In this document: piece by piece, positions 12,877 through 31,551 of the stretch | Layout: every line of letters starts with the position of its first letter | How positions within the stretch are numbered: position 1 is the stretch's first letter | Assembly: GCA_003558065.1 (NCBI GenBank) | Contig: PWMU01000136.1 | Span: forward strand, 1 to 34,378 | Origin: Opitutia bacterium | Lineage (GTDB): Bacteria > Verrucomicrobiota > Verrucomicrobiia > Opitutales > T3Sed10-336 | Direction: 5' to 3' | DNA: 34,378 bases | The notes under the pieces: generated by a model | Database searches by the model: none | Told to the model about the DNA's origin: nothing | Seen by the model: only the letters and a program-made list of their open reading frames with translations | Position numbers and translations under genes: made by a program

Positions 12877-15831
12877 ATGATGATGATGATCCAACGAGAG
12901 AAAGGCGTGCGGCTTGCTGATTCGCACGGGTTTGTAACGGCGGCTGAAGCACGCGGTTCCGGTTCAACCGCCACGGGTGAAGCCGGGGCCCGGCGTGCTT
13001 TAACCGACGGCGGCGGGGGCGAGGAAAGTGGGCTCCGATCCGGTGCCCGGCCGAGGGGGTTTGCGTTCACCCTGTTCGTGGGCGCACTGCTGGCTTTCAC
13101 GGCAGGCGTTGCTGTCGCACAGACGACCTCCGCTGTCCGGGTCGACGGAATTGAGGAAGGAGGGAAGTACCCGCCCCCCGTAACGCCTGAGGTGGTCGTC
13201 CGGGGGAATTATACCGTGGAGGCGAAGAAGCTCAACGGCGAGCCGTACGAGGGAAGCGGGATCGTCGAGCAGGGACTGCATGAGCTGGAGGTAACGGTGT
13301 CGGACCAGGAGGGTCGCCTGTATTCCTCGACGACCCGTTTCTTCGTTCTCGATCCCGAGGAGCGAGCGCCCACCTACACCGTCGACATGGTAAGCTACCA
13401 CGTGGGACGCCTGGCCGATTATCCTCATGTCATGCCAACGCTCACCGCCAACCGGGAACTCGTCGTGGGAACATCAAGCGGGTGGCCGGAGGATCCGGAA
13501 ATCCCGGAGCACGACCTTTACGGATTCCGTATTACCGATCCGGAAGCCGAGGAACCGAAACTCCGGCTGGTACTGGTCAGCGGCAACCACCCGCGCGAAC
13601 AGACCGGGAGCTGGGCGCTTCAGGGAGCGCTCGACTTCCTGGTGAGCGACGACCCGCGTGCCGAAGACTTGCGCGGTTGGGCGACCTTCTTTGTCTACCC
13701 AATGGTCAACCCGGACGGGCGGTTCCTGGCCTCGGGCCGGTCCAATCCGGAAATGCTGGAGGAGGACGTGAGCGATCACAACCGGGTCTGGAACACGTCC
13801 GGCCGTTTCACGACCACGGATATTTTCGTCGAGGCGATCACGACCGACACCGGCGGCACCGCCGATTACCTGCTCGATTTTCATTCCGCCGGCAGCACCT
13901 TCTTTTATACGGGTGCGGATTTGATGGACAGCGCGTATGCCCGGACCATGACGGCGCGGGAACCGGATGTCCGGCCCCGACTGAGTTCGGGACATCCCGG
14001 GATGACCCGTCTCTGGGCAATGAGCGAGGAAGGGCTCAACGCGCCGTTCGCCTTTACCCCCGAACTTGCGGGAAGCGAGACCGCGAAGCGTTCGATGGAG
14101 ATCGGACGTTCCTATATGCTCGCCTTTCACGACATGATTACGGGGGAATCCGCCCTGGCCGCCCTGGCGGAAGCGTTGACGGCCGAGGGAGGGGAGTTCG
14201 CTTTCGGCCGCTTGTACCGTGAACGATTGCCCGGGAGGAAAGAAGCGATGGAAGCGGTTCTCGAACAGGAGTCCGACCGGGTAGACCGGATCCTGGCCGC
14301 GGTGTACGAGGCCTACGAGGACATGAGCGAGTACCGGGAAGCACTTGGACTGAGCGAATCTGCCGGGGACTCCATCGCGGCGGCACGGGAGCTCCTGGAG
14401 GAATCCCGATTGGTCTTGGCGACCTGGATTGAGGAGGAGCTGACGAGACGGGTGGACCGCCTGGAACAGGCCGTTTTGGATCCGGGGTCGATGATCGACG
14501 AGGTGCGGAAGCTGAACGAGGCGCTCGCCGGCGGATTGGAGGATCTGCGGGACGCGGAGATGGCGGAGACCGCTTTGGCCGTTGCGGACGAAGGGTTTCA
14601 GGGACGGGACGTGGGCTTCGGGGAGGTTTACCGCAAAAGTGTCTTGCAAACCCGAAACAGTCTGGAGGCTTTGCTCAGGGAGTCAGGGATGAGCAGGGAG
14701 GCGATTAGGGGAGAGGCTGAACGCCTCGATGACCGCGTGGCTCGGTATTGGAGGGTTCGGTCCGAAAGTCCGTCGCCGGCCGTGGCCCCGGTGCGGATTA
14801 CGGGCGTTCCGGAGGTGATCGAGGTGAGCGGCGCACGGGGTTGGGAGGACGGGCTTTTGGTGAATGTTGAAGTGGAGGAGGATGGCCTGGTTCCCGGCAA
14901 CGGTGTTGCGATGCATTTCGATGGCGAAGACTCGCACGTGGTGACGGGGTTTCATCCGGGAGAATCCAGCCTGGGGCAAGAGTTTACCTGGGAGTTCTGG
15001 AAACGGTATAGCAGCTTTGAGGACGATACCGGTTCGTCGGGCAGCAGAGACACCGAGCCGAGATTCTACACGCAGTTGACCGGCTCGGACGGGCAGTTCA
15101 GGACGGCGATCGGTGACAGTTACTGGAATTCGGTTACTCTGGACGAGGAGGACCGGTGGTATCATATCGCAGTGGTGTTCGAGAAGGGAGAGGTGCGGAC
15201 GTACGTCGACGGGGAGCTTCGCGACACCCGCTCGGACGTGGAGTTTTCGGGTGACAGTCCCAGTCCGTTCGCGATCGGCAGAGGTTATGACGGAGAACGC
15301 TGGCTCGACGGTTACTCCAGGGAGCATCGGGTTTGGAATACCGCGCGCAGCCAGGGTGAGCTGCGGCGCAATCGATTCCGCGGCCTGGATGGAGATGAGG
15401 ACCATCTTGTCGGTTACTGGAAACTGAGCGAAGGCGAGGGAGATAGGGCTCGGGACTATTCGGGCAACGAGTACCACGGCACGGTGGAAGGCGCCACATG
15501 GAGCGGACGGGCTCTTCCCGGGTATCGGATTTCCCAGCCGGTTTTGTTCACGGAAACCGCAAATGTGAATCAGGTTGTCGTCAGTTGGGAAACCGGAAGC
15601 GGCAATGGTAACGGCAATGGCGATGCCAGCGTCACCGTTCTGGCCGGGTTGAGCGAGAGCGATACGGTGCTTCCCGACCAGTGGCACCCGTCGACCAACG
15701 GAGAGGCTCTGGAAATTTTTGAAGAACGCAACCACCCCGCGGGCACCCATCTGTGGGTGAAACAGAAGCTGTCACCCGGGACTTCCGAGGTGCCAACCAG
15801 ACTTCATCACCTCACTCTTCGTTTCGATTAA
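12877..15831 (+). CDS. Secreted M14 zinc carboxypeptidase with C-terminal LamG/concanavalin-like domain
   Basis: A 984-residue exported metallopeptidase. A hydrophobic signal segment (about residues 62-82, FAFTLFVGALLAFTAGVAVAQ) sits after an unusually long, basic N-terminal stretch. The true start may be later than 12877, but I see no better in-frame codon. An Ig-like strand domain (about 85-160) is followed by the M14 catalytic domain with the complete zinc and catalytic set: His238 and Glu241 (NHPRE), His336 (LDFHSAG) and Glu396 (FTPELAG). Residues about 425-650 are charged and helical, probably a coiled spacer. Residues about 690-835 form a LamG-type lectin fold (FTWEFWKRYSS, WYHIAVVFEKGEVRTYVDG, VGYWKLSEGEG). 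A glycine/asparagine-rich linker precedes the last 65 residues. Substrate unknown. It lies alone between prmC and the ceramidase/sulfatase run. Confidence 0.85.
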   Translation: MMMMIQREKGVRLADSHGFVTAAEARGSGSTATGEAGARRALTDGGGGEESGLRSGARPRGFAFTLFVGALLAFTAGVAVAQTTSAVRVDGIEEGGKYPPPVTPEVVVRGNYTVEAKKLNGEPYEGSGIVEQGLHELEVTVSDQEGRLYSSTTRFFVLDPEERAPTYTVDMVSYHVGRLADYPHVMPTLTANRELVVGTSSGWPEDPEIPEHDLYGFRITDPEAEEPKLRLVLVSGNHPREQTGSWALQGALDFLVSDDPRAEDLRGWATFFVYPMVNPDGRFLASGRSNPEMLEEDVSDHNRVWNTSGRFTTTDIFVEAITTDTGGTADYLLDFHSAGSTFFYTGADLMDSAYARTMTAREPDVRPRLSSGHPGMTRLWAMSEEGLNAPFAFTPELAGSETAKRSMEIGRSYMLAFHDMITGESALAALAEALTAEGGEFAFGRLYRERLPGRKEAMEAVLEQESDRVDRILAAVYEAYEDMSEYREALGLSESAGDSIAAARELLEESRLVLATWIEEELTRRVDRLEQAVLDPGSMIDEVRKLNEALAGGLEDLRDAEMAETALAVADEGFQGRDVGFGEVYRKSVLQTRNSLEALLRESGMSREAIRGEAERLDDRVARYWRVRSESPSPAVAPVRITGVPEVIEVSGARGWEDGLLVNVEVEEDGLVPGNGVAMHFDGEDSHVVTGFHPGESSLGQEFTWEFWKRYSSFEDDTGSSGSRDTEPRFYTQLTGSDGQFRTAIGDSYWNSVTLDEEDRWYHIAVVFEKGEVRTYVDGELRDTRSDVEFSGDSPSPFAIGRGYDGERWLDGYSREHRVWNTARSQGELRRNRFRGLDGDEDHLVGYWKLSEGEGDRARDYSGNEYHGTVEGATWSGRALPGYRISQPVLFTETANVNQVVVSWETGSGNGNGNGDASVTVLAGLSESDTVLPDQWHPSTNGEALEIFEERNHPAGTHLWVKQKLSPGTSEVPTRLHHLTLRFD

Positions 15832-15879: not shown

Positions 15880-17205
15880 ATGAGGCTGGAAAACGTAACC
15901 AGAATACCGGTCGGTACCGCGAGGATCGACATTACTCCGGATTACCCGATCCGTCTGAGCGGTTATGCGATGCGTGAAGGTGAGTGTGAAGGGATCGAGC
16001 AACGGCTGTGGGCCCAGGCTATGGCGATCGGAGACGAGGGTGAGGCGGCTTCGTTACTCCTGACCGTCGATAATACGGGAGTGCCGGAGCAGGTGACCGG
16101 CGCGGTCTTTGAACGCGTGGCGGCTCAGGCCGCGGTGGCGCGGGAGAATTTTTCTATCTGCTCAACCCACACGCATCACAGCCCGATGCTCTCCGGGGTG
16201 CTGCCCAACCTCTTCAGCCGGGACCTTTCTTCCAACGAGGAAGCCGCCATTGAACGGTATACAGGGGAACTGATGGTCAGGCTTGAAGAAGTGGCGCTCG
16301 CGGCGCTGTCCGGCCGGAGGCCGGCGTGTCTCTCCTGGGGGCGGGGAACGGTGGATTTTGCAAAGAACCGGCGGACGGAAGGAGGTCCCGTGGATCATTC
16401 TTTGCCGCTTCTCTGTGTGCGATCCCCCGAGGGAAAGCTCCGGGCCGTCTTCACCCGGTACGCCTGTCACTGCACCACGGTGGCCCCGCGCTTCAATAAG
16501 CTTCACGGCGACTGGGCGGGCGAGGCTCGTGCGGCATTCGAGGCGGCTCATCCGGGAGCGATGGCGATGATCGCCATCGGCTGCGCGGGCGACGCGAACC
16601 CGGATCCCCGCCGGGGCCTCGAATTCGCGCGGCGGCACGGGGAGAGCGTCGCCGCGGAGGCGAGTCGGCTGTTGGGAACGGATTTAAAGCCGCTCAACGC
16701 GAAGCCCGGGGGAAGGGTGAGTCGCGTCGACCTTCCCTTTGAAAGGTTGCCGGACCGCCGGGAATGGGAAAACCGGGCGACCCAGCCCGGTATTGTCGGT
16801 TATCACGCCCGGAAGAATCTGGACCGCCTCGACAGGGGAGAAACCCTGCCGGCGACGCTCCCCTGCGGCGCGCAGGCATGGATTTTCGGCGACGAGCTCG
16901 CGATGCTGTTTCTTTCGGGGGAAGTGGTGGTCGATTACACGCGCCGGCTCGAAAACGACTTCGACAGGGATCGGCTGTGGATCAACGCTTATGCCAACGA
17001 CGTCCCGTGCTACATTCCCTCCCGGCGCATCCTGGACGAGGGCGGTTACGAAGCCGAGGAGTCGCAGTGGTTCTACGACCGCCCCGCCCGGTTTGCGCCC
17101 GAAACCGAAGATGTGATCGTCGCCGCCGTTCACGGCCTGATACCCGAGTTCCGCCTCGGCCCCGGGTGTGACAGGGCGGCTGCCTCATCAGCAGGACAAA
17201 CATGA
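15880..17205 (+). CDS. Neutral/alkaline ceramidase-like N-terminal domain hydrolase
   Basis: A 441-residue protein with the catalytic fold of neutral/alkaline non-lysosomal ceramidases (Ceramidase_alk). The signatures are VGTARIDITPDYPIRLSGY at the start, then STHTHHSP (about 95-102, zinc-binding histidines), FTRYACHCTTV (about 193-203) and IGCAGDANPDPR (about 231-242). True ceramidases carry an extra C-terminal domain and a signal peptide. Both are absent here, so the substrate may be another amide or lipid-linked compound, possibly cytoplasmic. Homologues of this short form are common next to sulfatases in Planctomycetes and Verrucomicrobia. The stop overlaps the sulfatase start in ATGA, so the two are translationally coupled. 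An AGGG ribosome site lies four bases before the ATG. Confidence 0.82.
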   Translation: MRLENVTRIPVGTARIDITPDYPIRLSGYAMREGECEGIEQRLWAQAMAIGDEGEAASLLLTVDNTGVPEQVTGAVFERVAAQAAVARENFSICSTHTHHSPMLSGVLPNLFSRDLSSNEEAAIERYTGELMVRLEEVALAALSGRRPACLSWGRGTVDFAKNRRTEGGPVDHSLPLLCVRSPEGKLRAVFTRYACHCTTVAPRFNKLHGDWAGEARAAFEAAHPGAMAMIAIGCAGDANPDPRRGLEFARRHGESVAAEASRLLGTDLKPLNAKPGGRVSRVDLPFERLPDRREWENRATQPGIVGYHARKNLDRLDRGETLPATLPCGAQAWIFGDELAMLFLSGEVVVDYTRRLENDFDRDRLWINAYANDVPCYIPSRRILDEGGYEAEESQWFYDRPARFAPETEDVIVAAVHGLIPEFRLGPGCDRAAASSAGQT

Positions 17206-18677
17206 ACAAATCGGGGAAACGGCGGAATTTTTTGCTGATCATGACCGATCAGCAGCGCGGGGATTGCCTGGGAATCGACGGGCACCCGGCGCTGTTGACG
17301 CCCAATATGGACAGCATTGCCGGGGCGGGCGCGCGGTTCCGGCGCGCCTACAGCACCTGCCCGGTTTGCATTCCGGCGCGCCGGTCCTTCCTTACCGGCC
17401 AGTTTCCGGCCACCCACGGGTTGACCGGTTACGAGGACGGACACGAGTGGGATCCGGCTCATTCGCTTCCCAATGTTCTCCGGAATGCCGGGTATCATAC
17501 CTACCTCGCCGGCCGGGACATGCACCAGTACCCCGTGCGCAAGCGTTATGGGTACGATCATATGGTCGGCATGAACGATTACCGGCGCTGGCTGGACCGG
17601 CGGATGCCGGTGGACACCCATCAGCCGGAAGGGGGATTTCTGGGAGATTATTATTCGAGCGGCGTCATGTCGTCGGACTGGACCGCGCGTTCCTGGCACC
17701 TGGACGAGTGCCTGCACCAGACGAACTGGACGGTCAACGAGGCTATGAAGTTTCTGCAGAACCGCGATCCATCCGCGCCGTTTTTCCTGACCGTGTCCTT
17801 CCTTGCTCCCCACCCGCCCCTGGTTCCCCCGGCGTTTTACATGAAGCGCTACTTGCGGACGGAGCTGCCCGGTCCGTGGATCGGTGACTGGGCGGCGCCT
17901 CCGGATCACAACGGACTGGGGTACGGGCCGGAGCATTACCGGGTGAATCTGAAGGGCGAGGCGCTGCGATCGACACGGGCGGCCTATTACGGCTTGATCA
18001 ACCATATAGACGATCAAATCGGACGCCTGCTGAGTCCGTTCACGGGCGTCGATCCTTCCGATACGGTCGTTATCTTTTCGAGCGATCACGGGGAGATGCT
18101 TGGCGACCATTACATGTGGCGGAAGAACGTGCCTTACGAAGGGTCGGCGCGTATTCCCCTGTTGATACGGGCTCCGGATGGATACGGCTTGAAACCGCGC
18201 GAGGTCATCGATCTTCCCGTTTGCCTGGAAGATATCATGCCCACGATCCTCGATCTGGCCGATGTCGAATGCCCGGAGGGAGTGGACGGACGGAGCCTGG
18301 CGCCGTTGATGCGCGGGAAGGAAACGGACTGGCGCGACTGCCTGCACATCGAACATACGGCCGGCCGCCGGGAGGGAGGCGATCTCGCGCATCTCGCCCA
18401 TCATACGTTGACCGACGGGAAGGAGAAGTACATCTGGTTTGCCGGGGACGGAACCGAGCAGCTCTTCGATCTGGAGAGCGATCCCCGCGAATTGAAGGAT
18501 CTGGCGGTAGACGCTTCGTCCGGGGAAAGGCTCCGCTCCTGGCGGAATCGGTTGATCGAGGAACTGGATGGGCGTGCGGAGGGTTTTACGGACGGCTCCC
18601 GCCTGATAGCGGGCCGGGACTACCCGGTTTTTATGAAGGAACGCGTCTCAATGACTGAAAGACGCAAAAGGCGATGA
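17202..18677 (+). CDS. Type I sulfatase (arylsulfatase family)
   Basis: A 491-residue sulfate ester hydrolase of the alkaline-phosphatase superfamily. The formylglycine-precursor core CxPxR is intact: Cys56-Ile-Pro58-Ala-Arg60, with RSFLTG following. Metal and substrate residues are recognisable: Asp16 (MTDQQRGD), Lys104-region AGRDMH, His204 (LAPHPP), Asp295-His296 (SSDHGEMLGDH) and Lys308. There is no signal peptide: the chain begins MNKSGKRRNFLLIMTDQQ, which is the start of the catalytic domain. The enzyme is therefore probably cytoplasmic, unusual for polysaccharide-degrading sulfatases. An activating formylglycine-generating or anaerobic maturase gene is not in the window. An AGGA ribosome site lies six bases upstream. 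Both ends overlap neighbours in ATGA, so it is the middle gene of a coupled trio. Confidence 0.93.
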   Translation: MNKSGKRRNFLLIMTDQQRGDCLGIDGHPALLTPNMDSIAGAGARFRRAYSTCPVCIPARRSFLTGQFPATHGLTGYEDGHEWDPAHSLPNVLRNAGYHTYLAGRDMHQYPVRKRYGYDHMVGMNDYRRWLDRRMPVDTHQPEGGFLGDYYSSGVMSSDWTARSWHLDECLHQTNWTVNEAMKFLQNRDPSAPFFLTVSFLAPHPPLVPPAFYMKRYLRTELPGPWIGDWAAPPDHNGLGYGPEHYRVNLKGEALRSTRAAYYGLINHIDDQIGRLLSPFTGVDPSDTVVIFSSDHGEMLGDHYMWRKNVPYEGSARIPLLIRAPDGYGLKPREVIDLPVCLEDIMPTILDLADVECPEGVDGRSLAPLMRGKETDWRDCLHIEHTAGRREGGDLAHLAHHTLTDGKEKYIWFAGDGTEQLFDLESDPRELKDLAVDASSGERLRSWRNRLIEELDGRAEGFTDGSRLIAGRDYPVFMKERVSMTERRKRR

Positions 18678-20668
18678 GCCGGCGGGCGCGACGTTGCTTC
18701 ACCCGCGTGACGGGCGCGGTTCTTCTGGGGCTTGCCTGGGCCGGCGGGAGTCTCGCGGCCGAGCTTCTCGTGTACGAAGCCTTTGAATACGAACGGCGCC
18801 AGGGACATGTGAACGCTGAGATTCCGGGCGAGGGGATCGACGGGTTGGACGGGGGATACGGGTGGGACGGCGGATGGTCAATGACCGCGCCGGACAATCT
18901 GAACTCGGGAATACCGGAAGGACACGGCGATTTCGGCGAAGGGGAAACGTGGGGCACGAATCTCGGCGCGCGTACCGGGCCGCTTTCGTATTCGGATGTG
19001 TTTGGGAACTCGCTCACGGTTTCCGGAAATCAAGTGCGTACGTCTTTCGGGAACAGTTCGTGGGAACGGCGTTCCCTCGCGCAACCGGTCGGGGAACCGG
19101 GCAGCACCGTGTGGATGAGCTTTCTTGCCCAGGCGCACGCGGACTCCACGGCCAGTCGCCGGTGGGCTTTTGTAGAACTGTCGAAGAACGGAACGAACCG
19201 GGCCTGGTTCGGGAACGTGACACCGGTTGTATCCGGCAATTGGGCGATGCAGCTTCCGGACCATCCGGAGGGAAGCCTGTACGCGGACGCAGGGGAGGAC
19301 TACAAAATGTCCGAGCCGACCCTGTATCTCGTAAAGCTTGCTTTTCCCGAAGATTCCGCCGGACGGACCCGCATTTCCGTGTGGTTGAATCCGGCGAACC
19401 TGGTTCACGAGAAAGCGCTGCGGACTCCGGTTTTCGAATTCGAAACCGCTTACACGGAATACGATCAAGTCGGCGTGGCGGGACGGTTTTCGACGGATTT
19501 CGACGAGATCCGGATCGGGACGAGCTTCGAGGCGGTGACGCCGACGGGGGTGACGCCTCCCTCGGCTCGGGGATTGGCCATTCAGCGCGACCGAGAGGAG
19601 ATGGTGCTTTCCTGGCCGGCCGAGGGTGCGGAACATCTTGCGCTCTATTCGTCGAATGATCTCGGAACGTGGACCGAGAGTCCCCATCTTCCGGTGACCG
19701 GGGACGAGAGGAGACGCGTGACCGTGCCGGCGTCTGCCGGGCGGCAATTTTTCCGCCTTCAGGAAATACCCTCGACGCTTTCACCGCCCCGTCTGGCAAA
19801 CCTGGAACGCTCGGGATGGGAGCCGCGGCCTGTTGCCGCCGGTCTTGTTTATTACGAGCGTCACTTTGAGAATCTGTTTGGCGATCCACAGGTGGTGAAC
19901 GTTTTGGCGATCGACCTGGATCATCCGGACGTGCGGATCGAACTGACCGCGACCGACGTCTGGGAACAAACCCGAATGCCGATTCAGGATTTCGCGCAAC
20001 ATGCCGGAGCGATCGCGGCGATCAACGGCGGCTTCGCACCGGCCCGGGTCCATGAGGAAGTCGGGTACGGGATCATGAAGTTCCGTGGCGAGGTATGGCC
20101 GTTTGTCAACGATCCCTCGTTCCACGAGGCTTATGAGGCTCTTGGGAGGAATGCAGTGGGTATTGACAGTGACGGGAAGTGGCATTTCGCCTCGCGCGGC
20201 GAGGAGGGGTGGGAACTCGGCGCCACGTGGGATTCGGACTGGCCAGGTATGGTCGATGCAATGGCCGGCGGAAGCCAGCTGGTGCGTAACGGGCGGGTTT
20301 ATCCCCTCGTGGTTCCGGAGGAAACGCGTGGAGCCTATCTGGAAGATGACAGGCTGCACCAGTTGACGTTCAACCGGCACCCCCGCACGGCGATCGGCAT
20401 TACAGAGGAGCGGGTTGCGGTCCTGGTGACGCTCGCCGGACGCTTCCCGGGAACAGCCGCGGGCATGACCCTGCAGGAGCTTGCCGAGCTGATGCTGTTC
20501 ATTGGGTGCCGCGACGCGCTGGAGCTGGATGGAGGAGGTTCGACCACGATGTGGATTGGGCGGGAACCGTTCGGGGGCGTCGTTAATTATCCGACCGACA
20601 ACGGTCAGTTCGACCACGAAGGCGCCCGCTCGCTGCGGCTTGCGGTGCTCGTCATGGAGAGGGATTGA
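18674..20668 (+). CDS. Exported three-module protein: lectin-like module, FFRLQ module and phosphodiester glycosidase (NAGPA family)
   Basis: A 664-residue secreted protein. It has a signal peptide at 1-29 (cut after SLAA). A lectin-like beta-rich module (about 30-290) starts YEAFEYERRQGH and ends GRFSTDFDEIRIGTSF. A small module at about 300-363 (LSWPAEG ... FFRLQ) is common at the ends of Verrucomicrobia secreted proteins. A C-terminal NAGPA/DUF2233 domain (about 380-664) carries the INGGFAPAR, RHPRTAIG and LDGGGSTTMW motifs. That family hydrolyses sugar-1-phosphodiester bonds; the human member uncovers mannose-6-phosphate. The glycosidase domain aligns without gaps, at high identity, to the lipoprotein encoded at 26142. 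The N-terminal part aligns with the 28584 and 29612 products. The start overlaps the sulfatase stop (ATGA). The reaction is inferred from family. Confidence 0.88.
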   Translation: MSRRARRCFTRVTGAVLLGLAWAGGSLAAELLVYEAFEYERRQGHVNAEIPGEGIDGLDGGYGWDGGWSMTAPDNLNSGIPEGHGDFGEGETWGTNLGARTGPLSYSDVFGNSLTVSGNQVRTSFGNSSWERRSLAQPVGEPGSTVWMSFLAQAHADSTASRRWAFVELSKNGTNRAWFGNVTPVVSGNWAMQLPDHPEGSLYADAGEDYKMSEPTLYLVKLAFPEDSAGRTRISVWLNPANLVHEKALRTPVFEFETAYTEYDQVGVAGRFSTDFDEIRIGTSFEAVTPTGVTPPSARGLAIQRDREEMVLSWPAEGAEHLALYSSNDLGTWTESPHLPVTGDERRRVTVPASAGRQFFRLQEIPSTLSPPRLANLERSGWEPRPVAAGLVYYERHFENLFGDPQVVNVLAIDLDHPDVRIELTATDVWEQTRMPIQDFAQHAGAIAAINGGFAPARVHEEVGYGIMKFRGEVWPFVNDPSFHEAYEALGRNAVGIDSDGKWHFASRGEEGWELGATWDSDWPGMVDAMAGGSQLVRNGRVYPLVVPEETRGAYLEDDRLHQLTFNRHPRTAIGITEERVAVLVTLAGRFPGTAAGMTLQELAELMLFIGCRDALELDGGGSTTMWIGREPFGGVVNYPTDNGQFDHEGARSLRLAVLVMERD

Positions 20669-20886
20669 GCGGGCGGATGAGGCTGTTCTTCCGCGAAGCG
20701 CCTGCAAAACCTGCCGGTCGTCGCGGTATGGAACAAACATTGTCGGTGCATTCGCGGTGATGGGATTGTCCCTGCATGTAAGCGACATGGTTTCATTCCC
20801 TGTCCTACGCCCGAGTCAATCGAATGAACGTTGCGTAAGATTTGGATTGTTTCGAACGGCGTGCATGGCAACCATTCAATGAATTA

Positions 20887-22071
20887 ATGAAGGGGTTTTG
20901 TAAGTATGTGCTGTTTCCTGTGAGCGGAGCCGTCTGGCTCTGGGCGGCGGTTGTCGTCGCTGCGATCGAGTTGCCGGAGGGCGCCGAGCGCGAGGCGATC
21001 CATCCGGGGGCCTGGGCATTTTCATGGACAGGGGAAACGGCCGAAGGGCCGGTGGCAATACACGGGTTTTACTGGGTGCGTGGGAACGAGGAATTGTCAA
21101 TGGTCGCCACCGCAGGAAGGGACCAGGTTCGGGGCACCGAGGAGACGAGCCGGCAGGCGGAGCGTCATGCCGGCGCATCGGTCCGGCCGCTCGCGGCGGT
21201 AAACGCGGATTTCTTTGTGGTGAGGGGGCCGGGGTACGGATCCGTTCACGGACCGTTTATTCGCGACGGTGAACTGCTCTCACTCGGCGATTCGCCGGCG
21301 GCGGCGATACTGGAGGATGGTTCGCTCGCGATTGCGGAGCTTGAGATCAGCGTCTGGCTGGAGACGCATGACGGCGCGCGGATCCGGATCGACCGGGTGA
21401 ACCATGAACGAGGGGAGAACCAACGGGTATTGTACACGCCTTCCTGGAATGGCAGTACCGCAACCGGGGAGGAGGGCGTGGAGGTCCGGCTGAAGGGACC
21501 CGGTCACCTGAAGCCGGACGGCGAAATCAGGGTCGAGGTGGCGGAGGAGCCGCGGGCGGAAACAGGCGACATGGCGTACGGTGCGGGCGAGTTTGTGCTT
21601 TCCGCCGAAGGTGAAGGACTCGCCCAGATTATCGATTTGCGTCCGGGGGACCGGTTCAAGCTGCATTCGCGGATGGATTCCGCGTTGCCGATCGTCCACG
21701 CGGTCGGGGGACTCCCGGTGATGATTCGCGACGGGGAGGTTTTGGATTTCGAAGGGGCGGATCCGGATGATTACATTCCCGGGCCCGGCGATCCGAATGC
21801 GCGGCATCCCCGCACCGCCATAGGAACCGACGGCCGGCATATTGTGGCCCTGGCGGTGGACGGTCGGGCGCCCGGGCACAGCGATGGAATGACCGTTCCC
21901 GAACTGGGCCGGTTCATGCGGCAGCTCGGTTGCACCGACGCGATCAACCTGGACGGCGGCGGTTCGACCACGGCATGGGCGGCCGGCCGGGCTTTGAATC
22001 GTCCCAGTGACGGATCCGAGCGTCCGGTGGGCAACGCGTTGGTTTTGGTTGTGACCCAGCGGGAACAATAA
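20887..22071 (+). CDS. Phosphodiester glycosidase family protein (NAGPA domain)
   Basis: A 394-residue exported protein with a hydrophobic N-terminus (KYVLFPVSGAVWLWAAVVVAAIE, signal or anchor). The NAGPA domain spans about residues 60-394, with AVNADFFVV (first strand and metal-site region), AVGGLPVMIRDG, RHPRTAIGTDGRHIVALAVDGR, HSDGMTVPELGRFMRQLGC and NLDGGGSTTAW. It has an insertion in the middle and is clearly more distant from the 18674 and 26142 enzymes than they are from each other. This suggests a different sugar or leaving group. The ATG at 20887 gives a good signal; a TTG upstream at 20842 is possible. No ribosome site is visible. The 218-base gap before it holds only a short hairpin (CATGT-AAGCG-ACATG at 20775-20789). 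Confidence 0.85.
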   Translation: MKGFCKYVLFPVSGAVWLWAAVVVAAIELPEGAEREAIHPGAWAFSWTGETAEGPVAIHGFYWVRGNEELSMVATAGRDQVRGTEETSRQAERHAGASVRPLAAVNADFFVVRGPGYGSVHGPFIRDGELLSLGDSPAAAILEDGSLAIAELEISVWLETHDGARIRIDRVNHERGENQRVLYTPSWNGSTATGEEGVEVRLKGPGHLKPDGEIRVEVAEEPRAETGDMAYGAGEFVLSAEGEGLAQIIDLRPGDRFKLHSRMDSALPIVHAVGGLPVMIRDGEVLDFEGADPDDYIPGPGDPNARHPRTAIGTDGRHIVALAVDGRAPGHSDGMTVPELGRFMRQLGCTDAINLDGGGSTTAWAAGRALNRPSDGSERPVGNALVLVVTQREQ

Positions 22072-24318: not shown

Positions 24319-26145
24319 TCATGCGGCCGGTTTGCCGGAGTTTTCTTCAGTCCCGAATTCCCTTTCGCCGCCTTCGGGTTCAAAAGCGGGCTGCCTCCAG
24401 ATCCGGAACAACAACCACGTGGTCGCGAGCGCGCAAACTACCGCCGATGTCGTGAAAACTCCCCACGCCCCGACGAAGAGCGAGTTGGTCGCAAGGACCA
24501 GTCCCAGGCACGCGGCAATCCCCAGAACACAGTCGAACACGAGGTGCCCGGTCGCAGGGCCGGAGGGCCGGTTCCCGGACAGTTCGCGGATGGGCTTCCA
24601 GAGACCGGGCGGGCGGCAGCGTTCATAAAAACGCAGCAGCGTTTCTTTCGATTCCGGCGGCGTGAGAAGAGTGACCCCGATCAGCACAACAAAGCTCAGA
24701 ACAAAAAGGATGCCCAGTCCCTGCCAGATCGGCTGACTCTGGAAGTCCAGGACGAACCAGATCAGGATCGCCAGCGGCAGTCCGAGCGCAACGGCGGAAA
24801 ACTCGCCCCACACGTTGAATCGCCACCAGAAGAACCGAAGCCAGGAGAGGGGCAGCAGAAACATCACCATCGCTGAATTGATGAACAGGAACCACCCTAT
24901 CATTCCTTCCACAAAAAGAATCGCGACAAACGCCGCCAGGACGAACAGGCACAGCGTCACCAGGCGGCTGATCCAGATCTCCTGTGTCCGGCTCAGCTTG
25001 TTCCCGTTTTTCGTGCGACCGTTTTTCAATACGAAGTCATTGACGATGAAACTGCTGCCCCAGTTGATCAGGGAGCTCTGCGTGGACATATACGCGGCGG
25101 CTTCCACTGCGAGCAACAGGCCCACGAAGCCGAGAGGAACCGCGGTCATGGCGGCCAGGGTGCCCCACGCGTGGACCGGGTCTTCGAGCATGACGGCGTT
25201 TTCGGGCGTGTGCCCGTAGTGTTCGGCGAGGTCGGGGGTCCAGAAAAGCGACATGGCCACAATCCCCAGTCCGATGATGGGAAGCGTGCGAAAGGTCAGG
25301 GCGAGAAACGCATTGAACAACTGACCTCCGACCGCGTGCCGCTCGTTCCGGGCGGCCATAAAGCGCTGGGCGGTCATTCCTTCCCCGGCGGTGGGCGATC
25401 CCGCAAAGAAAAGCCCCTGAAGCAGTAGCATCATCAACGTCACCACTTCGATATTCGGGGCGGGCGGGGCGATCTTCAGTCCCTCGGGCCGTATTTCCCG
25501 TACGCGCTCCGTAATCTCCAGCCATCCCCCGTGCTGGTCGACGGCGAACCAGAGGAAAATGCCGCCCCCGATCATCAGGATCGCAAACTGGACCGCGTCG
25601 GTGTACACGACGCCGACCAGCCCGCCCATCATCGTATACACGACGGCGATCCCTCCGAAGATCAACAGGATCTGCACTTCGGTCAGCGGAACTAACGGCG
25701 AAATCACCTGGGCAAAGAATCCCGTGCTGTAGCCGATGAGAAGGACGGCGAATCCGAAGCAGCACAGCAGAGCGTAGAGCTTGCGCACGAACTGAGCGGG
25801 AGCGCCTCCGTAACGCAGCGTGATCAACTCCGCTGTCGTGACGATCCGCATACGCCGCCAGAGACGCGACCAAATAATGGCCACCAGCGGCATCCACACG
25901 ATCCAGCTCGCCCACCAGAGCCAGTTTCCCGCGATGCCGAACGCGAGAATCAGCATCACGAAAGCGCCCGATCCCGATTGGTAGGTCGCGGTATTGGAAA
26001 GGCCGATCGACCACCAGGGGAGATTGCGGTTGCCGGTGAAGAAGCCGCGGGCTCCGTGCCTGGACGCACGGCGGGCGAAAAAGAGTCCGACGCCCAGTGA
26101 GAGGGCACACAGAACGGTCAATACGGCGTAGTCGGCAAAAGTCAT
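24319..26145 (-). CDS. Sodium:solute symporter family transporter
   Basis: A 608-residue inner-membrane protein with about 13-14 hydrophobic segments, matching the SSS (solute:sodium symporter) family. The GFFTGNRNLPWWSIGLSNTATYQSGSGAF stretch (helix 1b-2), VVYTMMGGLVGVVYTDAVQF (helix 5-6) and a long cytoplasmic loop before the last helices are characteristic. Substrates of this group include sugars, sugar acids, nucleosides and small organic acids. The specificity cannot be read, but the surroundings favour a sugar or glycerol-like product of the phosphodiester glycosidases. The ATG overlaps the stop of the preceding lipoprotein gene (ATGA at 26142-26145), so translation is probably coupled. 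The C-terminal tail is acidic. Confidence 0.92.
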   Translation of the reverse strand: MTFADYAVLTVLCALSLGVGLFFARRASRHGARGFFTGNRNLPWWSIGLSNTATYQSGSGAFVMLILAFGIAGNWLWWASWIVWMPLVAIIWSRLWRRMRIVTTAELITLRYGGAPAQFVRKLYALLCCFGFAVLLIGYSTGFFAQVISPLVPLTEVQILLIFGGIAVVYTMMGGLVGVVYTDAVQFAILMIGGGIFLWFAVDQHGGWLEITERVREIRPEGLKIAPPAPNIEVVTLMMLLLQGLFFAGSPTAGEGMTAQRFMAARNERHAVGGQLFNAFLALTFRTLPIIGLGIVAMSLFWTPDLAEHYGHTPENAVMLEDPVHAWGTLAAMTAVPLGFVGLLLAVEAAAYMSTQSSLINWGSSFIVNDFVLKNGRTKNGNKLSRTQEIWISRLVTLCLFVLAAFVAILFVEGMIGWFLFINSAMVMFLLPLSWLRFFWWRFNVWGEFSAVALGLPLAILIWFVLDFQSQPIWQGLGILFVLSFVVLIGVTLLTPPESKETLLRFYERCRPPGLWKPIRELSGNRPSGPATGHLVFDCVLGIAACLGLVLATNSLFVGAWGVFTTSAVVCALATTWLLFRIWRQPAFEPEGGEREFGTEENSGKPAA

Positions 26146-27149
26146 TCCGGTACCGCGTTGTCGTTTTCCTGGAGTACGAGAACGGCAAGCCTCAGGCTGC
26201 GCTCGCCTTCGTGGTCGAACCGGCCGTTGTCGGTCGGGTAATTAACGACACCTGAAAACGGTTCGTCCCCGATCCACATGGTGGTCGAACCTCCGCCGTC
26301 GAGCTCCAGGGCGTCGCGGCAGCCGATGCGCACCAATAGTTGCGCGAGTTCATGAAGGGTCATCCCGGCGGCTTTTTCCTCGAAACGTCCCGCCACGGTA
26401 GCCAGGACCGCGATTCGATCGGCGGTGATGCCGACCGCTGTACGGGGATGGCGCCGGAAGGTCAACCGCGAAAGAACGGGGTCTTCGAGGTAGGCGCCTT
26501 TCGTCGTTTCCCGCACGACGAGAGGATGAACCTCGCCGTCTTGCACGAGACGACTGCCTCCCGCCATGACCTGTTCCATTTCCGGCCAATCGTTATCCCA
26601 GCTGGATTCCAGTTCCCAGCTCTCTTCGCCGCGCGAGGCAAAATGCCAATTCCCGTTTCTGTCGATCCCCAGGGCGTTTCGCCCGTGGGCCTCCCAGGTG
26701 TGGTGGAATGCGGGGTCGTTGACAAACGGCCAGACCTCTCCCCGGAATTTCATCATCCCGTAGCCGACCTCTTCGTGACGACGGGCGGGGGCGAAACCTC
26801 CGTTGACGGCGGCAACGGCATCGGCCCGCGCCGCCAGCCATGACGTCGGCATCCGCGTCACCCCCCAGACATCGGTTGCGGTGAGTTCGATCCGGATATC
26901 CGGATGATCCAGGTCGACCGCGAGGAGGTTCACGACCTGGGGCGCTCCGAACAGCTCCTCGAAATGGCGCTCGTAGTAAGTGACCCCGGGGCGCACCGGC
27001 TGAGGCGTCCATCCTTGCTCCTCCATTCCCGGAAGCCCCGCCTCCGAAGGAAGGCATCCGCTGAGCACAAAACAGCCTGCGATGCAAAGGAGAAATCCGC
27101 TGCCGAGGGCGAGTCGAGGCCCTGGGGAGTTGTCAATGACTTCTTTCAT
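26142..27149 (-). CDS. Lipoprotein phosphodiester glycosidase (NAGPA family)
   Basis: A 335-residue enzyme anchored to the membrane by a lipoprotein signal (FLLCIAGCFVLSGC, acylated Cys32). After it comes a complete NAGPA/DUF2233 domain: VNGGFAPAR, RHPRTAVGITADRIAVL, RIGCRDALELDGGGSTTMW and VVNYPTDNG. By eye it matches the C-terminal part of the 18674 protein at roughly two thirds or more identity over about 285 residues with no gap. The two are therefore recent paralogues sharing a probable substrate. Here the enzyme is membrane-bound and lacks the lectin-like module. It is first in the LacI-flanked operon and overlaps the symporter gene. Confidence 0.9.
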   Translation of the reverse strand: MKEVIDNSPGPRLALGSGFLLCIAGCFVLSGCLPSEAGLPGMEEQGWTPQPVRPGVTYYERHFEELFGAPQVVNLLAVDLDHPDIRIELTATDVWGVTRMPTSWLAARADAVAAVNGGFAPARRHEEVGYGMMKFRGEVWPFVNDPAFHHTWEAHGRNALGIDRNGNWHFASRGEESWELESSWDNDWPEMEQVMAGGSRLVQDGEVHPLVVRETTKGAYLEDPVLSRLTFRRHPRTAVGITADRIAVLATVAGRFEEKAAGMTLHELAQLLVRIGCRDALELDGGGSTTMWIGDEPFSGVVNYPTDNGRFDHEGERSLRLAVLVLQENDNAVPE

Positions 27150-27180: not shown

Positions 27181-27260
27181 GAAACCTTCAGATTGGAAAC
27201 CAGAGGCGAATCCGCAAGAGTAAATATTATAAAATATTATAATATAAGCTTGCTGGTTTC
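27181..27260. promoter_or_regulatory. Divergent control region with AT-rich tandem repeat and inverted half-sites
   Basis: The 140-base gap between the lipoprotein glycosidase and the lacI-type gene is the only strongly AT-rich stretch nearby. It holds a perfect tandem 10-bp repeat AAATATTATA (27222-27231 and 27232-27241) that runs into the 12-bp palindrome ATATTATAATAT (27234-27245). The tract is flanked by an 8-bp inverted repeat, GAAACCAG (27196-27203) and CTGGTTTC (27253-27260). A further GAAACC lies at 27181-27186. GAAAC/GTTTC half-sites resemble those bound by many LacI-family proteins. TATAAT hexamers exist on both strands. Likely promoters and operators for both genes; exact sites are not proven. 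Confidence 0.45.
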
Positions 27261-27289: not shown

Positions 27290-28336
27290 ATGCCGATCGA
27301 ACGGACAAGAAAAGTGTCGCAACAGGACATCGCACGCGATCTCGGCGTTTCGCAGGCGCTGGTTTCGATGGCCCTCGGCGGCCAGAGCGAGGGCGTCCAT
27401 CCGGAAACCTTCCGGCGAATTCGCGCCCGGGCGGCCAGCCTGGGCTACCGCTCCAGAGGCGGAGCCAACGGGAGCGGGCTGACCCAGGTCGGCTTTGTCC
27501 TGCGCCCGGGGCACACCCTTTACAGTCAGAGCAGTGTCTTCAGTCACATTCAGCACGGACTCCATTCGTTTTTGGAGAAGGAAGGAATCAGCACGCTGTT
27601 TCTCGGGACCGTCACCGGGATCCGCGAGAATCATTTTCGGAGCCTTGCCCGGCACAGGCACACCCTGTTGGGTGCCGTTGTGATGGGAGAGGTGGACCCT
27701 GAGTTTGTCCATCAGCTCAAGACTCATTTCTCCCGGCTGGTTACCGTTGCGGCCAGCTGTCCAGGGTACTGTCACACCGTGAGAAACAACGAAGCGCAGA
27801 CCATGGAACTGCTTGTGGAGCACTTGACGGGGCTGGGGCATCGCTCGTTTGCGTGGATCGGCGGCAACATTGGCAGCAGGACGCTGGATCGGCGGTGGGA
27901 GGCGCTTCAGCAGGCCCTGCACCGCCGCGGCCTCGAGTGCACCGGGGAATGTATCGAGTTGTTCGGAAATCCCAAGCAGCGCGAAGGTCAGGAGGCGGCC
28001 CGGCGGTTGCTCGACCGCTTCGGAAAGAATCCTCCCACCGCCTGGATCACCTACAACGGGCGAATGGCCCGGGGGGCGGTCAATCATTTGCTCGCCCGGC
28101 AGATCGAGGTACCCGGCGCGATCAGCGTCGCCGCCTGTGACGGAACGTATATCTGCGAGGACGAGGAGCCCACCCTGACCGGCGCGTACGCCGATCCCGA
28201 AAAAATCGGTGCGGTCGCCGGGAGGCTACTGTTGGAATCGACGGGCAAGGAAGACGAGGCCTACAATGAAGTCACACTCCCCGCCATCCTGCAGGTGCGC
28301 GACTCTTCGGGTCCGCCTCCGGATCGGGCGGAATGA
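27290..28336 (+). CDS. LacI-family transcriptional regulator
   Basis: A 348-residue DNA-binding repressor or activator. The N-terminal LacI-type helix-turn-helix (SQQDIARDLGVSQALVSMALGG, about residues 10-31, with VHPETFRRIRARAASLGY hinge helix) precedes a periplasmic-binding-protein-like effector domain (about 65-345: VGFVLRPGHTLY, HLTGLGHRSFAWIGG, ISVAACDGTYICEDEEPTLTGAYADPEKIG). The ATG at 27290 is fixed by a GGAGG ribosome site four bases upstream. Divergent from the glycosidase-symporter operon, it most likely controls that operon in response to a sugar-like ligand. The residue after the HTH signature fits the family and nothing is truncated. Confidence 0.95.
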   Translation: MPIERTRKVSQQDIARDLGVSQALVSMALGGQSEGVHPETFRRIRARAASLGYRSRGGANGSGLTQVGFVLRPGHTLYSQSSVFSHIQHGLHSFLEKEGISTLFLGTVTGIRENHFRSLARHRHTLLGAVVMGEVDPEFVHQLKTHFSRLVTVAASCPGYCHTVRNNEAQTMELLVEHLTGLGHRSFAWIGGNIGSRTLDRRWEALQQALHRRGLECTGECIELFGNPKQREGQEAARRLLDRFGKNPPTAWITYNGRMARGAVNHLLARQIEVPGAISVAACDGTYICEDEEPTLTGAYADPEKIGAVAGRLLLESTGKEDEAYNEVTLPAILQVRDSSGPPPDRAE

Positions 28337-28397: not shown

Positions 28398-28462
28398 TGA
28401 GGCAGGGTGGTGTCACGGAAGCGGGGGTCGGAAGGCCGCCAACTGCAAAAGGGTCGCGATTG

Positions 28463-28492
28463 TTTGATGAAATTAATAAATTCTTATATTTC
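28463..28492 (+). promoter_or_regulatory. Candidate promoter for the PEP-CTERM gene
   Basis: A locally AT-rich patch (TTTGATGAAATTAATAAATTCTTATATT) in an otherwise GC-rich 247-base gap. TTGTTT to TTATAT at 18-base spacing, or TTGATG with a downstream TATATT, could serve as -35/-10 boxes. Box matches are only partial. About 90 bases of leader would precede the ATG at 28584. Confidence 0.3.
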
Positions 28493-28583
28493 TGCCTTGA
28501 CGTTCGGGCCCGGCATTCGCGATTGTCGTCTCCGCAGCCTGCTCCTGCTGCCAACAGTTAAACCAGAACGAGACTCTCTTCAT

Positions 28584-29615
28584 ATGAAAGACCTACCTCC
28601 TTCCGTCCGGCGCTCAGGTTCGCTGGCTGTACGAATCGGGCGTTCGCCCTCTTCGGGTGCCCGGCGTTCCGTTGGGCTCCGCTTGCTTGCTACGATTCCG
28701 GCCGTTCTGGCCATGGCTGCCGGCCCGGCTACGGCGGCGATTATCGCCTACGAAGGCTTTGATTACGACCGCCGGCAATGGTTCGACGGTGACGATGAAG
28801 GCCAGGGGATCGCCGGGCTCGACGGTGGCACCGGATGGGGCGGGGCCTGGGAATCGCTGCCCGACCGTTTGAATGCCGGCATTCCGGAAGGGGAAGACGA
28901 TTTCGGCGCCGGCGCCGGCGCCCGGACCTCACCGCTTTCCTACACGGACAACTTTGGAAATCCGTTGGTGACTACAGGGAATCAGGTGCGCACGGCTTTT
29001 GGGAACAACTCCTGGGACCGGCGTCCCCTGGCCAATCCGCTCGGTGAAGCCGGCAGCACCGTATGGGTCAGTTTCCTCGGGCAGGCGCACGGCCAGGCCG
29101 GCAGCAATCGCTGGGCTTTTATCGAGCTGGCCGTCGACGGCGGCGACCGGTTGTGGCTCGGGAACGTGAATCCGGTCTCTTCCGGCAACTGGGGAATTTT
29201 CCTTCCTGACCGTACGGCGGAATCGGTGTCCGAAGATGCCGGCGAGGATTTTCCGATGGACGAACAGACCCTTTTCCTGATGAGGCTCGATTTCGGGAAT
29301 GATCCGTCGGAATCGACGGATGTTACGGTTTGGATGAATCCGCCGGACCTGAGGGATGAAACCGCTCTGCAAGATCCCGTGTTTCAGCTTGATACCGACT
29401 TCGCGGAGTACAACCAGGTCGGGGTTGCGGGACGGTTCTCCACCGACTTCGACGAGATTCGCATCGGGACGAGTTTCGATTCGGCGACGCCGATTCCAGA
29501 GCCTTCGGCGTACGCGTTGATTTTCGGGCTGGGCGTGTTCGGGATGCTGCTGCTGCGCCGGCGCGCGGCGGGCCGAAACGATCAACAAATCGACCGGAAA
29601 CAGGGATCGCCATGA
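28584..29615 (+). CDS. PEP-CTERM protein with YExFDYxRRQ lectin-like module
   Basis: A 343-residue exported protein. A long signal region ends near ATAA (about residue 52). The beta-rich module follows (YEGFDYDRRQ, GWGGAW, GNQVRTAFGNNSW, RWAFIEL, GRFSTDFDEIRIGTSF). The chain ends with a PEP-CTERM sorting tail: PIPEPSAYALIFGLGVFGMLLL, then RRRAAGR. Exosortase recognises such tails and delivers the protein to the envelope surface, often with exopolysaccharide production; no exosortase gene is in the window. An in-frame start further upstream (28407) would add a nonsense-like leader. The ATG at 28584 leads better into the signal peptide, though no clear ribosome site precedes it. Its stop overlaps the next gene in ATGA. 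Confidence 0.82.
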   Translation: MKDLPPSVRRSGSLAVRIGRSPSSGARRSVGLRLLATIPAVLAMAAGPATAAIIAYEGFDYDRRQWFDGDDEGQGIAGLDGGTGWGGAWESLPDRLNAGIPEGEDDFGAGAGARTSPLSYTDNFGNPLVTTGNQVRTAFGNNSWDRRPLANPLGEAGSTVWVSFLGQAHGQAGSNRWAFIELAVDGGDRLWLGNVNPVSSGNWGIFLPDRTAESVSEDAGEDFPMDEQTLFLMRLDFGNDPSESTDVTVWMNPPDLRDETALQDPVFQLDTDFAEYNQVGVAGRFSTDFDEIRIGTSFDSATPIPEPSAYALIFGLGVFGMLLLRRRAAGRNDQQIDRKQGSP

Positions 29616-30709
29616 AACAAATGAAATGCATACGTGTAGCGGCCGCCGGCGCGCTCCTGTTGGTGTGGAGCGGCGGGGAAGCGACCGCGGAGTTGCTGAT
29701 TTACGAGCCGTTCGACTACGAACGGCGGCAGGGCCATGCCGGCGCCGATATTCCCGGTGAAGGCATCCAGGGCCTGGATCCCGGCGGCATCGGATGGGAC
29801 GGGGGGTGGTTCAAAACCGACTCGGACAACCTCAACTCCGGAATCCCGGAAGGTCCGGGGGATTACGGAGACGGCGAAGACTACGGCGTTTCCCTCGGTG
29901 CGCGGACCGAACCGCTTTCTTATTCGGACGAGCACGGCAACCGGTTGGTTTCCGAAGGAAACCAGATCCGCACCGCCTTCGGGAATCGTTCGTGGGAGCG
30001 CCGGTGGCTCGACGAACCGATCGGAGAACTCGGGGGCACGGCCTGGCTGAGCTTCATGGCCCAGGCGCACGGGGATTCCACCGGCAGACCGCGCTGGGCC
30101 TTCGTTGAATTGGCGAGCACCGGACAGTTTTGGGTCTGGCTGGGTAACGTGACCCCGGTTGAATCCGGCAACTGGGCCTTTCAGAGGCAGACCGGCTCCG
30201 GCGAAGGAGAGGGCGAGGATTTCGGCGATGCCGGAGACGAATTTCCGCAGTCGGTCCAGACCATGTACCTGGCCAAACTCGAGTTTCCAACGACCTCCAC
30301 CGGCCATACACAGGTTAGGGTTTGGTTGAATCCTCCCGACCTCACCGATGAAGACGCTTTGCCCGAGCCGGTGTTTGAGTTCGACACCGCCTATGCCGAG
30401 TACAATCAGATAGGTGTGGCCGGCCGGTTCTCGACCGACTTCGATGAAATCCGGGTCGGTACCACCTTTGACTCGGTGACGCCCACTGAATCCGTGGCGC
30501 CCCCGGAGGTCGTGACGATGGACATTGTGCATGACGGCGGAGACGTCGTTCTTTCCTGGCCTGCTGCCGCCGAAGGGTATCAGCTGTACTCATCTGAGGA
30601 TCTCGATGAATGGAGCGAAGTGACCGAAGAGCCGGTGGTGCGGGATGAGAGAAACACGGTGACCGTTCCGGTCGACGGGAGTGACCGGCAATTCTTCCGC
30701 CTTCAATAG
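29612..30709 (+). CDS. Exported YExFDYxRRQ lectin-like protein with FFRLQ C-terminal module
   Basis: A 365-residue secreted protein, paralogous to the one just upstream and to the N-terminal half of the 18674 protein. The signal peptide spans 1-26 (AAAGALLLVWSGGEATA). The module covers about 28-290 (YEPFDYERRQGHAGADIPGEGIQGLD, SGIPEGPGDYGDGE, RFSTDFDEIRVGTTF). The chain then ends with the LSWPAAAEGYQLYSSEDLDEW ... RQFFRLQ module, with FFRLQ directly followed by the stop. The PEP-CTERM tail of its neighbour is absent. It is translationally coupled to the PEP-CTERM gene (ATGA) and preceded by an AGGG ribosome site. Function unknown; carbohydrate binding is a guess from fold-like pattern. Confidence 0.82.
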   Translation: MKQMKCIRVAAAGALLLVWSGGEATAELLIYEPFDYERRQGHAGADIPGEGIQGLDPGGIGWDGGWFKTDSDNLNSGIPEGPGDYGDGEDYGVSLGARTEPLSYSDEHGNRLVSEGNQIRTAFGNRSWERRWLDEPIGELGGTAWLSFMAQAHGDSTGRPRWAFVELASTGQFWVWLGNVTPVESGNWAFQRQTGSGEGEGEDFGDAGDEFPQSVQTMYLAKLEFPTTSTGHTQVRVWLNPPDLTDEDALPEPVFEFDTAYAEYNQIGVAGRFSTDFDEIRVGTTFDSVTPTESVAPPEVVTMDIVHDGGDVVLSWPAAAEGYQLYSSEDLDEWSEVTEEPVVRDERNTVTVPVDGSDRQFFRLQ

Positions 30710-30789
30710 GGTTGATCCTCTGGGAGAAGTTTCAAGAGTCGGTTGCGGAACGGGGATTTCAGTTGATAGTCACAGAGGGAAGCTTCGAG

Positions 30790-31551
30790 ATGAACCACTA
30801 TGCGAATGGATCCTGCTCTAGGTTGCGCCGATGTCCGGTCGCATTCGGGGCCTTGGGCCAGACGGACCTGAAACGGACGAGGGGCTTTACGCTGATCGAG
30901 CTGCTGACGGTGATTGCGATTATCGGAATTCTTGCGGCTATCCTTATTCCGGTGGTCAGCCGTGTGCGGGAGTCGGCCATCGCCTCGAAGTGTCAGGCGA
31001 ACCTCCGCGAAATCGGAGTTGCGGCGCATATGTATGCGGCGGATAATGATGACTATTTTCCTCCAACGCGACCCAGTAATTTGAGTTGGCTCGAACCCGA
31101 GGTGCGTGACGAGTTTGATTTTTATCTCGGTGGCGGGTACCAGGTGTTTTACTGCCCGAACAGCCTGCGCTATGAAAATGATCCCGCCGTTCACCACGAA
31201 GCCTGGAACGAGCCGGCACACCGAGGCGGATACGGCATCGGTTATTACTATCTGGGTAATCCGAGCGTTCCGGGTTTTGGGCAGCCGACCACCTACTGGG
31301 TCGACTCGCGCGGGACCAGAACGATTGAGGATGAGTACCTCGTCCGGGCAACGGATCCCGATGTTTCATTGATTGCGCTTGCGGCGGATCAATCCGGCCA
31401 GATCGGACGAGTGGGGTCGAACTGGGTGATGCGCCACCCGGTTTCGGAAAGCGGGAACATGAATGTGCTCTATGGCGACGGCCATGTGAAAAGCAAGGCT
31501 GCACACGAGATCAAACTCCGCTATCACCCTCCCGAGCCAATTGGATGGTGA
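30790..31551 (+). CDS. Prepilin-type N-terminal cleavage/methylation protein (type II secretion pseudopilin-like)
   Basis: A 253-residue protein with a type IV prepilin signal: RTRG|FTLIELLTVIAIIGILAAILIP, cut after the Gly by prepilin peptidase, with Glu at +5. A globular domain follows. Near the end is a DGH motif (MNVLYGDGHVKSKA) of the H-X9-DG family, common and greatly expanded in Planctomycetes and Verrucomicrobia. Here His-to-DG spacing is 13 residues (RHPVSESGNMNVLYGDGH), four longer than the usual nine. The start at 30790 (MNHYANG) is preceded by an AGAGGGAAGC purine-rich site. An upstream start at 30712 is possible but would add 26 residues. It follows the 29612 gene by 80 bases. 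Role inferred: pseudopilus or surface fibre component. Confidence 0.82.
   Translation: MNHYANGSCSRLRRCPVAFGALGQTDLKRTRGFTLIELLTVIAIIGILAAILIPVVSRVRESAIASKCQANLREIGVAAHMYAADNDDYFPPTRPSNLSWLEPEVRDEFDFYLGGGYQVFYCPNSLRYENDPAVHHEAWNEPAHRGGYGIGYYYLGNPSVPGFGQPTTYWVDSRGTRTIEDEYLVRATDPDVSLIALAADQSGQIGRVGSNWVMRHPVSESGNMNVLYGDGHVKSKAAHEIKLRYHPPEPIGW

Follow-up and report, generated by a model that had tools for sequence, protein, structure and literature searches.

What does a fusion gene reveal about the target of its parts when both parts also stand as separate genes in the same locus? The question is raised by a 34,378-nucleotide stretch from an Opitutia bacterium (contig PWMU01000136.1 of assembly GCA_003558065.1; hereafter the window), in which the single unbroken frame 18674-20668 (+) encodes a protein of 664 amino acids; this and the other genes are named here by their lowest coordinate. 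A first-pass annotation of the window read the protein as a lectin-like module, a module ending in FFRLQ and a glycosidase, and regarded it as a Rosetta stone, i.e. a natural fusion predicting that its free-standing relatives act on the same target. The fusion proved to be real and old, and it is probably functional. Its enzyme domain shares unusual motif changes with a free-standing lipoprotein, which suggests one substrate for both, while a ligand common to the lectin-like proteins is plausible.

The order of the three modules was borne out by alignments and Pfam matches. A predicted signal peptide lacking a lipobox (residues 1-28; 18674..18757, +), recognized by a hydrophobic stretch ending in GSLAA ahead of Glu, is followed by the lectin-like module (residues 29-291; 18758..19546, +). 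Then come the FFRLQ module (residues 292-363; 19547..19762, +), which a genome search and a structure model describe as generic, beta-rich and usually C-terminal, a linker of 10 residues, EIPSTLSPPR (19763..19792, +), and a domain of the NAGPA (phosphodiester glycosidase) family (residues 374-664; 19793..20665, +; PF09992, E 2.5e-28). For the entire fusion, the AlphaFold prediction was of too low quality for use (predicted local distance difference test score, pLDDT, 42).

Both halves have close free-standing relatives in the window. Residues 11-363 of the fusion align locally with residues 8-365 of the secreted lectin-like protein 29612 (29612..30709, +) at 215/352 identical positions (61%), and residue 365 is the last of that protein, which terminates in QFFRLQ and a stop. 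Residues 374-664 match residues 39-329 of the NAGPA lipoprotein 26142 (26142..27149, -), whose predicted lipobox, LSGC, lies at residues 29-32. This second alignment is gapless, as had been claimed, with 209 of 291 residues identical (72%; the claimed length was about 285). The scores, 1096 (at most 61 in 60 shuffles) and 1149 (at most 56 in shuffles), are about 20 times those of shuffled sequences. The PF09992 match spans nearly the whole profile in both enzymes (99.8 bits in 18674 and 110.4 bits in 26142, with a Pfam cut-off of 25). The relationship exceeds family-level similarity, since identity of the fusion's NAGPA domain falls from 72% with 26142 to 34% with 20842 (20842..22071, +), the window's third NAGPA protein and a distant homologue with a normal DGR motif, encoded downstream of the fusion. 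The copies are old, because nucleotide identity across the aligned codons of fusion and separate genes is only 64-70%.

The first-pass annotation placed the junction just after FFRLQ. It does lie there, but homology to the enzyme begins 10 residues further on, past the linker. A junction at the old lipobox cysteine (FFRLQ/xIPS against C/LPS) was considered and rejected; the linker fragment alone aligned no better than shuffles.

A third lectin-like gene, absent from the first-pass finding, overlaps 29612 by 4 bases (28407..29615, +; probable start near 28584). The lectin-like modules of 18674, 29612 and 28407 are mutually 57-65% identical, that of the fusion sharing 65% with 29612 and 59% with 28407. 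In place of the FFRLQ module, 28407 carries a PEP-CTERM tail (PF07589, 24.9 bits; cut-off 20.7), and the genome contains two exosortase genes (PF09721), by whose products the protein could be processed.

The same fusion is present in an independent genome of the same genus (G001, contig 447), with FFRLQ and a similar linker, TVPSSLPSPR, in place. Its lectin-like part is 72-73% and its enzyme part 81% identical to those of 18674, although the contig ends within the enzyme domain. Directly upstream of both fusions lies a sulfatase gene (17202..18677, + in the window), 78% identical between the genomes and overlapping the fusion by the same 4 bases. These findings agree with the earlier view of a natural fusion. 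Orthologue pairs differ by a nonsynonymous divergence (dN) of 0.20 in the lectin-like part, 0.13 in the NAGPA domain and 0.13 in the neighbouring sulfatase; synonymous divergence (dS) is saturated (>1.2), so that dN is the measure compared. Low dN with saturated dS indicates purifying selection on both halves of the fusion. The locus is accessory, because in another genome of the genus (G002, 96% complete) no lectin-like module and no NAGPA domain passed the search thresholds. A contig scan with the full fusion as query yielded only a distant NAGPA match, in a Bacteroidales metagenome-assembled genome.

In phylogenetic analysis the fusion, its G001 orthologue and lipoprotein 26142 formed, by their NAGPA domains, one clade with support of 100/100, apart from the other nearest paralogues, and not the grouping with distant genomes that the first-pass annotation had named as contrary evidence. 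Inside this clade the fusions pair as sisters (89-90/82-83), which makes the G001 fusion, and not 26142, the nearest relative of the 18674 enzyme domain. The nearest outgroup domains (contigs C105 and C195, and genome G004) share 43-45% identity and are all stand-alone. Since the outgroups are stand-alone and the fusions are sisters, the enzyme was presumably duplicated before the species split, and the lipoprotein keeps the older architecture. The lectin-like copies, judged by dN distance, also separated before the split from G001. We infer that, in an ancestor of the genus, a lectin-like gene ending in FFRLQ would have been joined in frame to a NAGPA copy minus its signal peptide, the original stand-alone form persisting in 26142.

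The most interesting point found here, and one newly recognized, is a motif change in the clade uniting 18674 and 26142. The alignment examined comprised 31 NAGPA domains of this genome and its relatives, 28 of them outside the clade. Of these 28, 26 have D or E as the acid of the DGR motif, and Asp occupies the position in the solved bacterial and vertebrate structures (3OHG; 6PKU/6PKY for NAGPA). The fusion (residue 588, codon 20435-20437), its G001 orthologue and 26142 (residue 253, codon 26391-26393, -) have Ala instead, and thus lack the usual, though not Pfam-required, (D/E)G(R/Q) acid of PF09992 (DUF2233). A second change affects the residue two positions before the invariant DGGGS, which is Asn in 21 of the 28 outside domains and Glu in 18674 (residue 617, codon 20522-20524) and 26142 (residue 282); the G001 copy is cut off ahead of this position, so Glu is seen in the fusion and the lipoprotein only. 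The NGG, HPRTA.G, GR and DGGGS motifs of the family are retained in both proteins. No other evidence speaks as strongly as these shared derived changes for a like action of the fusion and the lipoprotein. They suggest an unusual active site common to the two and hence probably one substrate, but they may equally mean that activity is reduced or lost.

The front half of the fusion is less informative about a target. Weak matches to the FFRLQ module were found in about 10 other proteins of the genome, nearly all 4-9 residues ahead of the stop, with one protein carrying an internal copy as well. Such a promiscuous module contains no information on the target and is unusable for shared-target inference; the lectin-like subfamily is not promiscuous. 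The module is also far less constrained than the other parts (34% identity and dN of 0.76 between the fusion and its G001 orthologue), as expected for a spacer. The same module in the fusion is 53% identical to that of 29612, a pattern that points either to rapid evolution of the module or to gene conversion inside this genome. Many secreted-looking proteins of the genome (L055-L063, on contigs C73, C135, C109, C192 and others) are capped at the C-terminus by a generic module that closes with F(F/L/Y)R(L/V), for which no Pfam family was matched where scanned and for which a sorting role is possible.

The window does hold a composite gene and, as genes of their own, both of its parts, but those parts are paralogues in the same genome; in a classical Rosetta stone, as set out in PMC2248599, they are orthologues in another genome. 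Given this, the promiscuity of FFRLQ and the lack of separate parts in G001 (82% complete), the only other genome with the fusion, the Rosetta-stone inference is weaker than first stated. A common target is independently supported for the two enzymes, through their shared motif changes, but not for the lectin-like proteins.

The close lectin-like subfamily has three copies in the genome, all inside the window, plus one distant match. When 384 genomes sampled from the class and 388 from the phylum were searched with a profile, all relatives recovered were distant, small PEP-CTERM proteins being several among them, and no close stand-alone copy was found in the relatives (G001 being only 82% complete) or in the class and phylum samples searched. 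Neither Pfam nor NCBIfam names a family for the module; above Pfam cut-offs, only the PEP-CTERM tail was detected in the lectin-like proteins. A fold model of the mature 29612 protein, built from three sequences of the window, has a mean pLDDT of 52.6, with better values for its core and its FFRLQ module. For the core (approximately residues 86-265), Foldseek matched galectins and further lectins of the ConA-like type (E 6e-5), the comparison with the galectin-8 N-domain giving a Z of 12.9 over 143 residues at 2.9 Å. At the level of fold, this low-confidence model gives tentative support to a galectin/ConA-like jelly roll; nothing beyond the fold bears out the lectin-like label, and sequence identity is about 10%.

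The fusion is preceded by a ceramidase-like gene and then the sulfatase, each junction being a 4-base overlap, and followed by the distant NAGPA gene 20842. G001 retains the sulfatase, but a DUF4438 gene takes the place of the ceramidase-like gene. Lipoprotein 26142 belongs to another operon, in which its gene overlaps by 4 bases that of a sodium:solute symporter (24319..26145, -), followed on the same strand by GATase1-like and type I phosphodiesterase genes. Between this operon and that of the lectin-like genes lies a LacI-family regulator gene (27290..28336, +). The divergent region separating the lipoprotein and LacI genes contains a palindrome, ATATTATAA-aata-TTATAATAT (27224-27245), which is a candidate operator. 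An operator common to the lipoprotein and fusion operons was rejected, since the palindrome occurs only once in the window.

Elsewhere, stand-alone NAGPA relatives adjoin DUF4623 proteins with an FFRL tail (C195, G004) or a PEP-CTERM protein (G004), and on C105 such a gene directly follows a sulfatase, with a LacI gene beyond. This repeated proximity of NAGPA to secreted surface proteins and sulfatases argues, independently of the fusion, for a role in glycan processing. The G004 PEP-CTERM neighbour was considered as a lectin-like relative and rejected, there being no detectable relation. One such pairing is conserved in two genera (L031:10375-13983 and L033:2144-6405), where a DUF4623 gene with an FFRL-type tail lies directly upstream of, or one gene away from, a stand-alone NAGPA gene.

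In the reading that we favour, and to which we give about an even chance, 18674 is a secreted modular enzyme. Its galectin/ConA-like module would bind a glycan, the FFRLQ beta-module would serve as a spacer, and the NAGPA-family hydrolase domain would act on the bound glycan. One enzyme would thus exist in two forms: 26142, lipid-anchored to the cell and working with the adjoining symporter, and 18674, released but kept at its substrate through the lectin-like module. The PEP-CTERM-sorted 28407 at the surface and the secreted 29612 in solution would be extra binding proteins, probably for the same or a similar glycan. Enzymes combining a carbohydrate-binding module (CBM) with a catalytic domain, and surface glycan-binding proteins of polysaccharide utilization loci, provide a model, the binding module tethering the enzyme to its substrate and free binding proteins being encoded nearby. 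We propose that 18674 works alike, with free lectin-like genes close at hand; unlike in polysaccharide utilization loci, the genes scanned yielded no assigned CBM and none of the SusC/D type.

Several points weigh against this proposal. A galectin-like fold alone is no proof of sugar binding, least of all in a model of such low mean confidence. Loss of a near-invariant acid could leave the enzyme domain inactive in both proteins. G001 (82% complete, its contig ending inside the fusion) shows no stand-alone lectin-like or lipoprotein copy. The operons are separate and share no repeat of the palindrome in the window, which gives no sign of co-regulation, and no substrate can be named from the evidence, gene neighbourhoods included.

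A less probable, though serious, alternative is that modules were duplicated and recombined within one locus without a shared target, the paralogues having since acquired different ligands, in which case the fusion would say little about the free proteins. The lectin-like copies are indeed diverged, and by dN they predate the split from G001; the FFRLQ module is of a generic kind; and NAGPA is often joined to other extracellular modules, both in this genome (L002, L008, L009) and in the literature (PMC11188070, PMC12419801). Against such shuffling stand the rare motif changes common to fusion and lipoprotein and the restriction of the lectin-like subfamily to one locus of the genome.

The motif changes themselves admit a further, rather unlikely, explanation, namely that the pair is catalytically altered or dead, its members being glycan-binding relatives or relatives of altered specificity and not phosphodiester glycosidases. 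The Ala shared by all three proteins of the clade fits this view; the intactness of every other strongly conserved motif position and the low dN do not, nor does the Glu gained next to DGGGS, as though the acid had moved. A related and similarly speculative idea is that the clade is a NAGPA subfamily in which loss of the DGR acid and gain of an acid beside DGGGS gave a new specificity or mechanism, deployed both cell-tethered and, through a dedicated and otherwise unclassified galectin-like module, substrate-tethered.

Fission of an ancestral fusion into the stand-alone genes is improbable. It would accord with the co-linearity of 29612 with the entire front half of the fusion and with the unresolved branching order of the lectin-like copies, but all outgroup NAGPA genes are stand-alone, the lipoprotein carries a lipobox signal of its own, no FFRLQ module is present in the PEP-CTERM copy 28407, and FFRL modules normally occur at protein ends. 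An assembly chimera or annotation artefact, conceivable in a draft of 197 contigs, can be dismissed, because G001 independently carries the same fusion, linker and upstream sulfatase; GC content at third codon positions is, moreover, even across the modules.

Little literature was found on the function of bacterial NAGPA proteins. The family is joined to extracellular binding domains in large Bacillota proteins (PMC12419801) and in calcineurin-like proteins of the ShfP type (PMC11188070). As in these, NAGPA serves in 18674 as a building block of a secreted modular protein that also carries binding modules, but partners and order differ, the fusion having no second enzyme. Since enzymes carried on lectin-like modules, including NAGPA with binding domains, are already known (PMC11188070, PMC12419801), 18674 is an ordinary kind of modular enzyme. 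Another protein of the genome (L002, contig C88) combines NAGPA with Ig-like repeats and an apparent metallophosphatase domain at its end, resembling the NAGPA-calcineurin combinations of PMC11188070.

The locus links an unclassified family of lectin-like proteins with a family of bacterial enzymes for which few natural substrates are known; with one fusion, one lipoprotein and two free binding proteins, it forms a compact test set. Identifying the glycan to which the small lectin-like proteins bind would offer a practical route to the substrate of the enzyme. The shared loss of the acid marks a part of the NAGPA family where the name should not imply activity.

Two further genes of the window deserve mention. 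A zinc carboxypeptidase of family M14, which has a Laminin_G_3 module and is extended at its C-terminus, is encoded at 12877-15831. Directly after 29612 lies a gene for a pseudopilin-like DUF1559 protein (30712-31551), and similar proteins are encoded near NAGPA genes on C105 and on contig 405 of G004.

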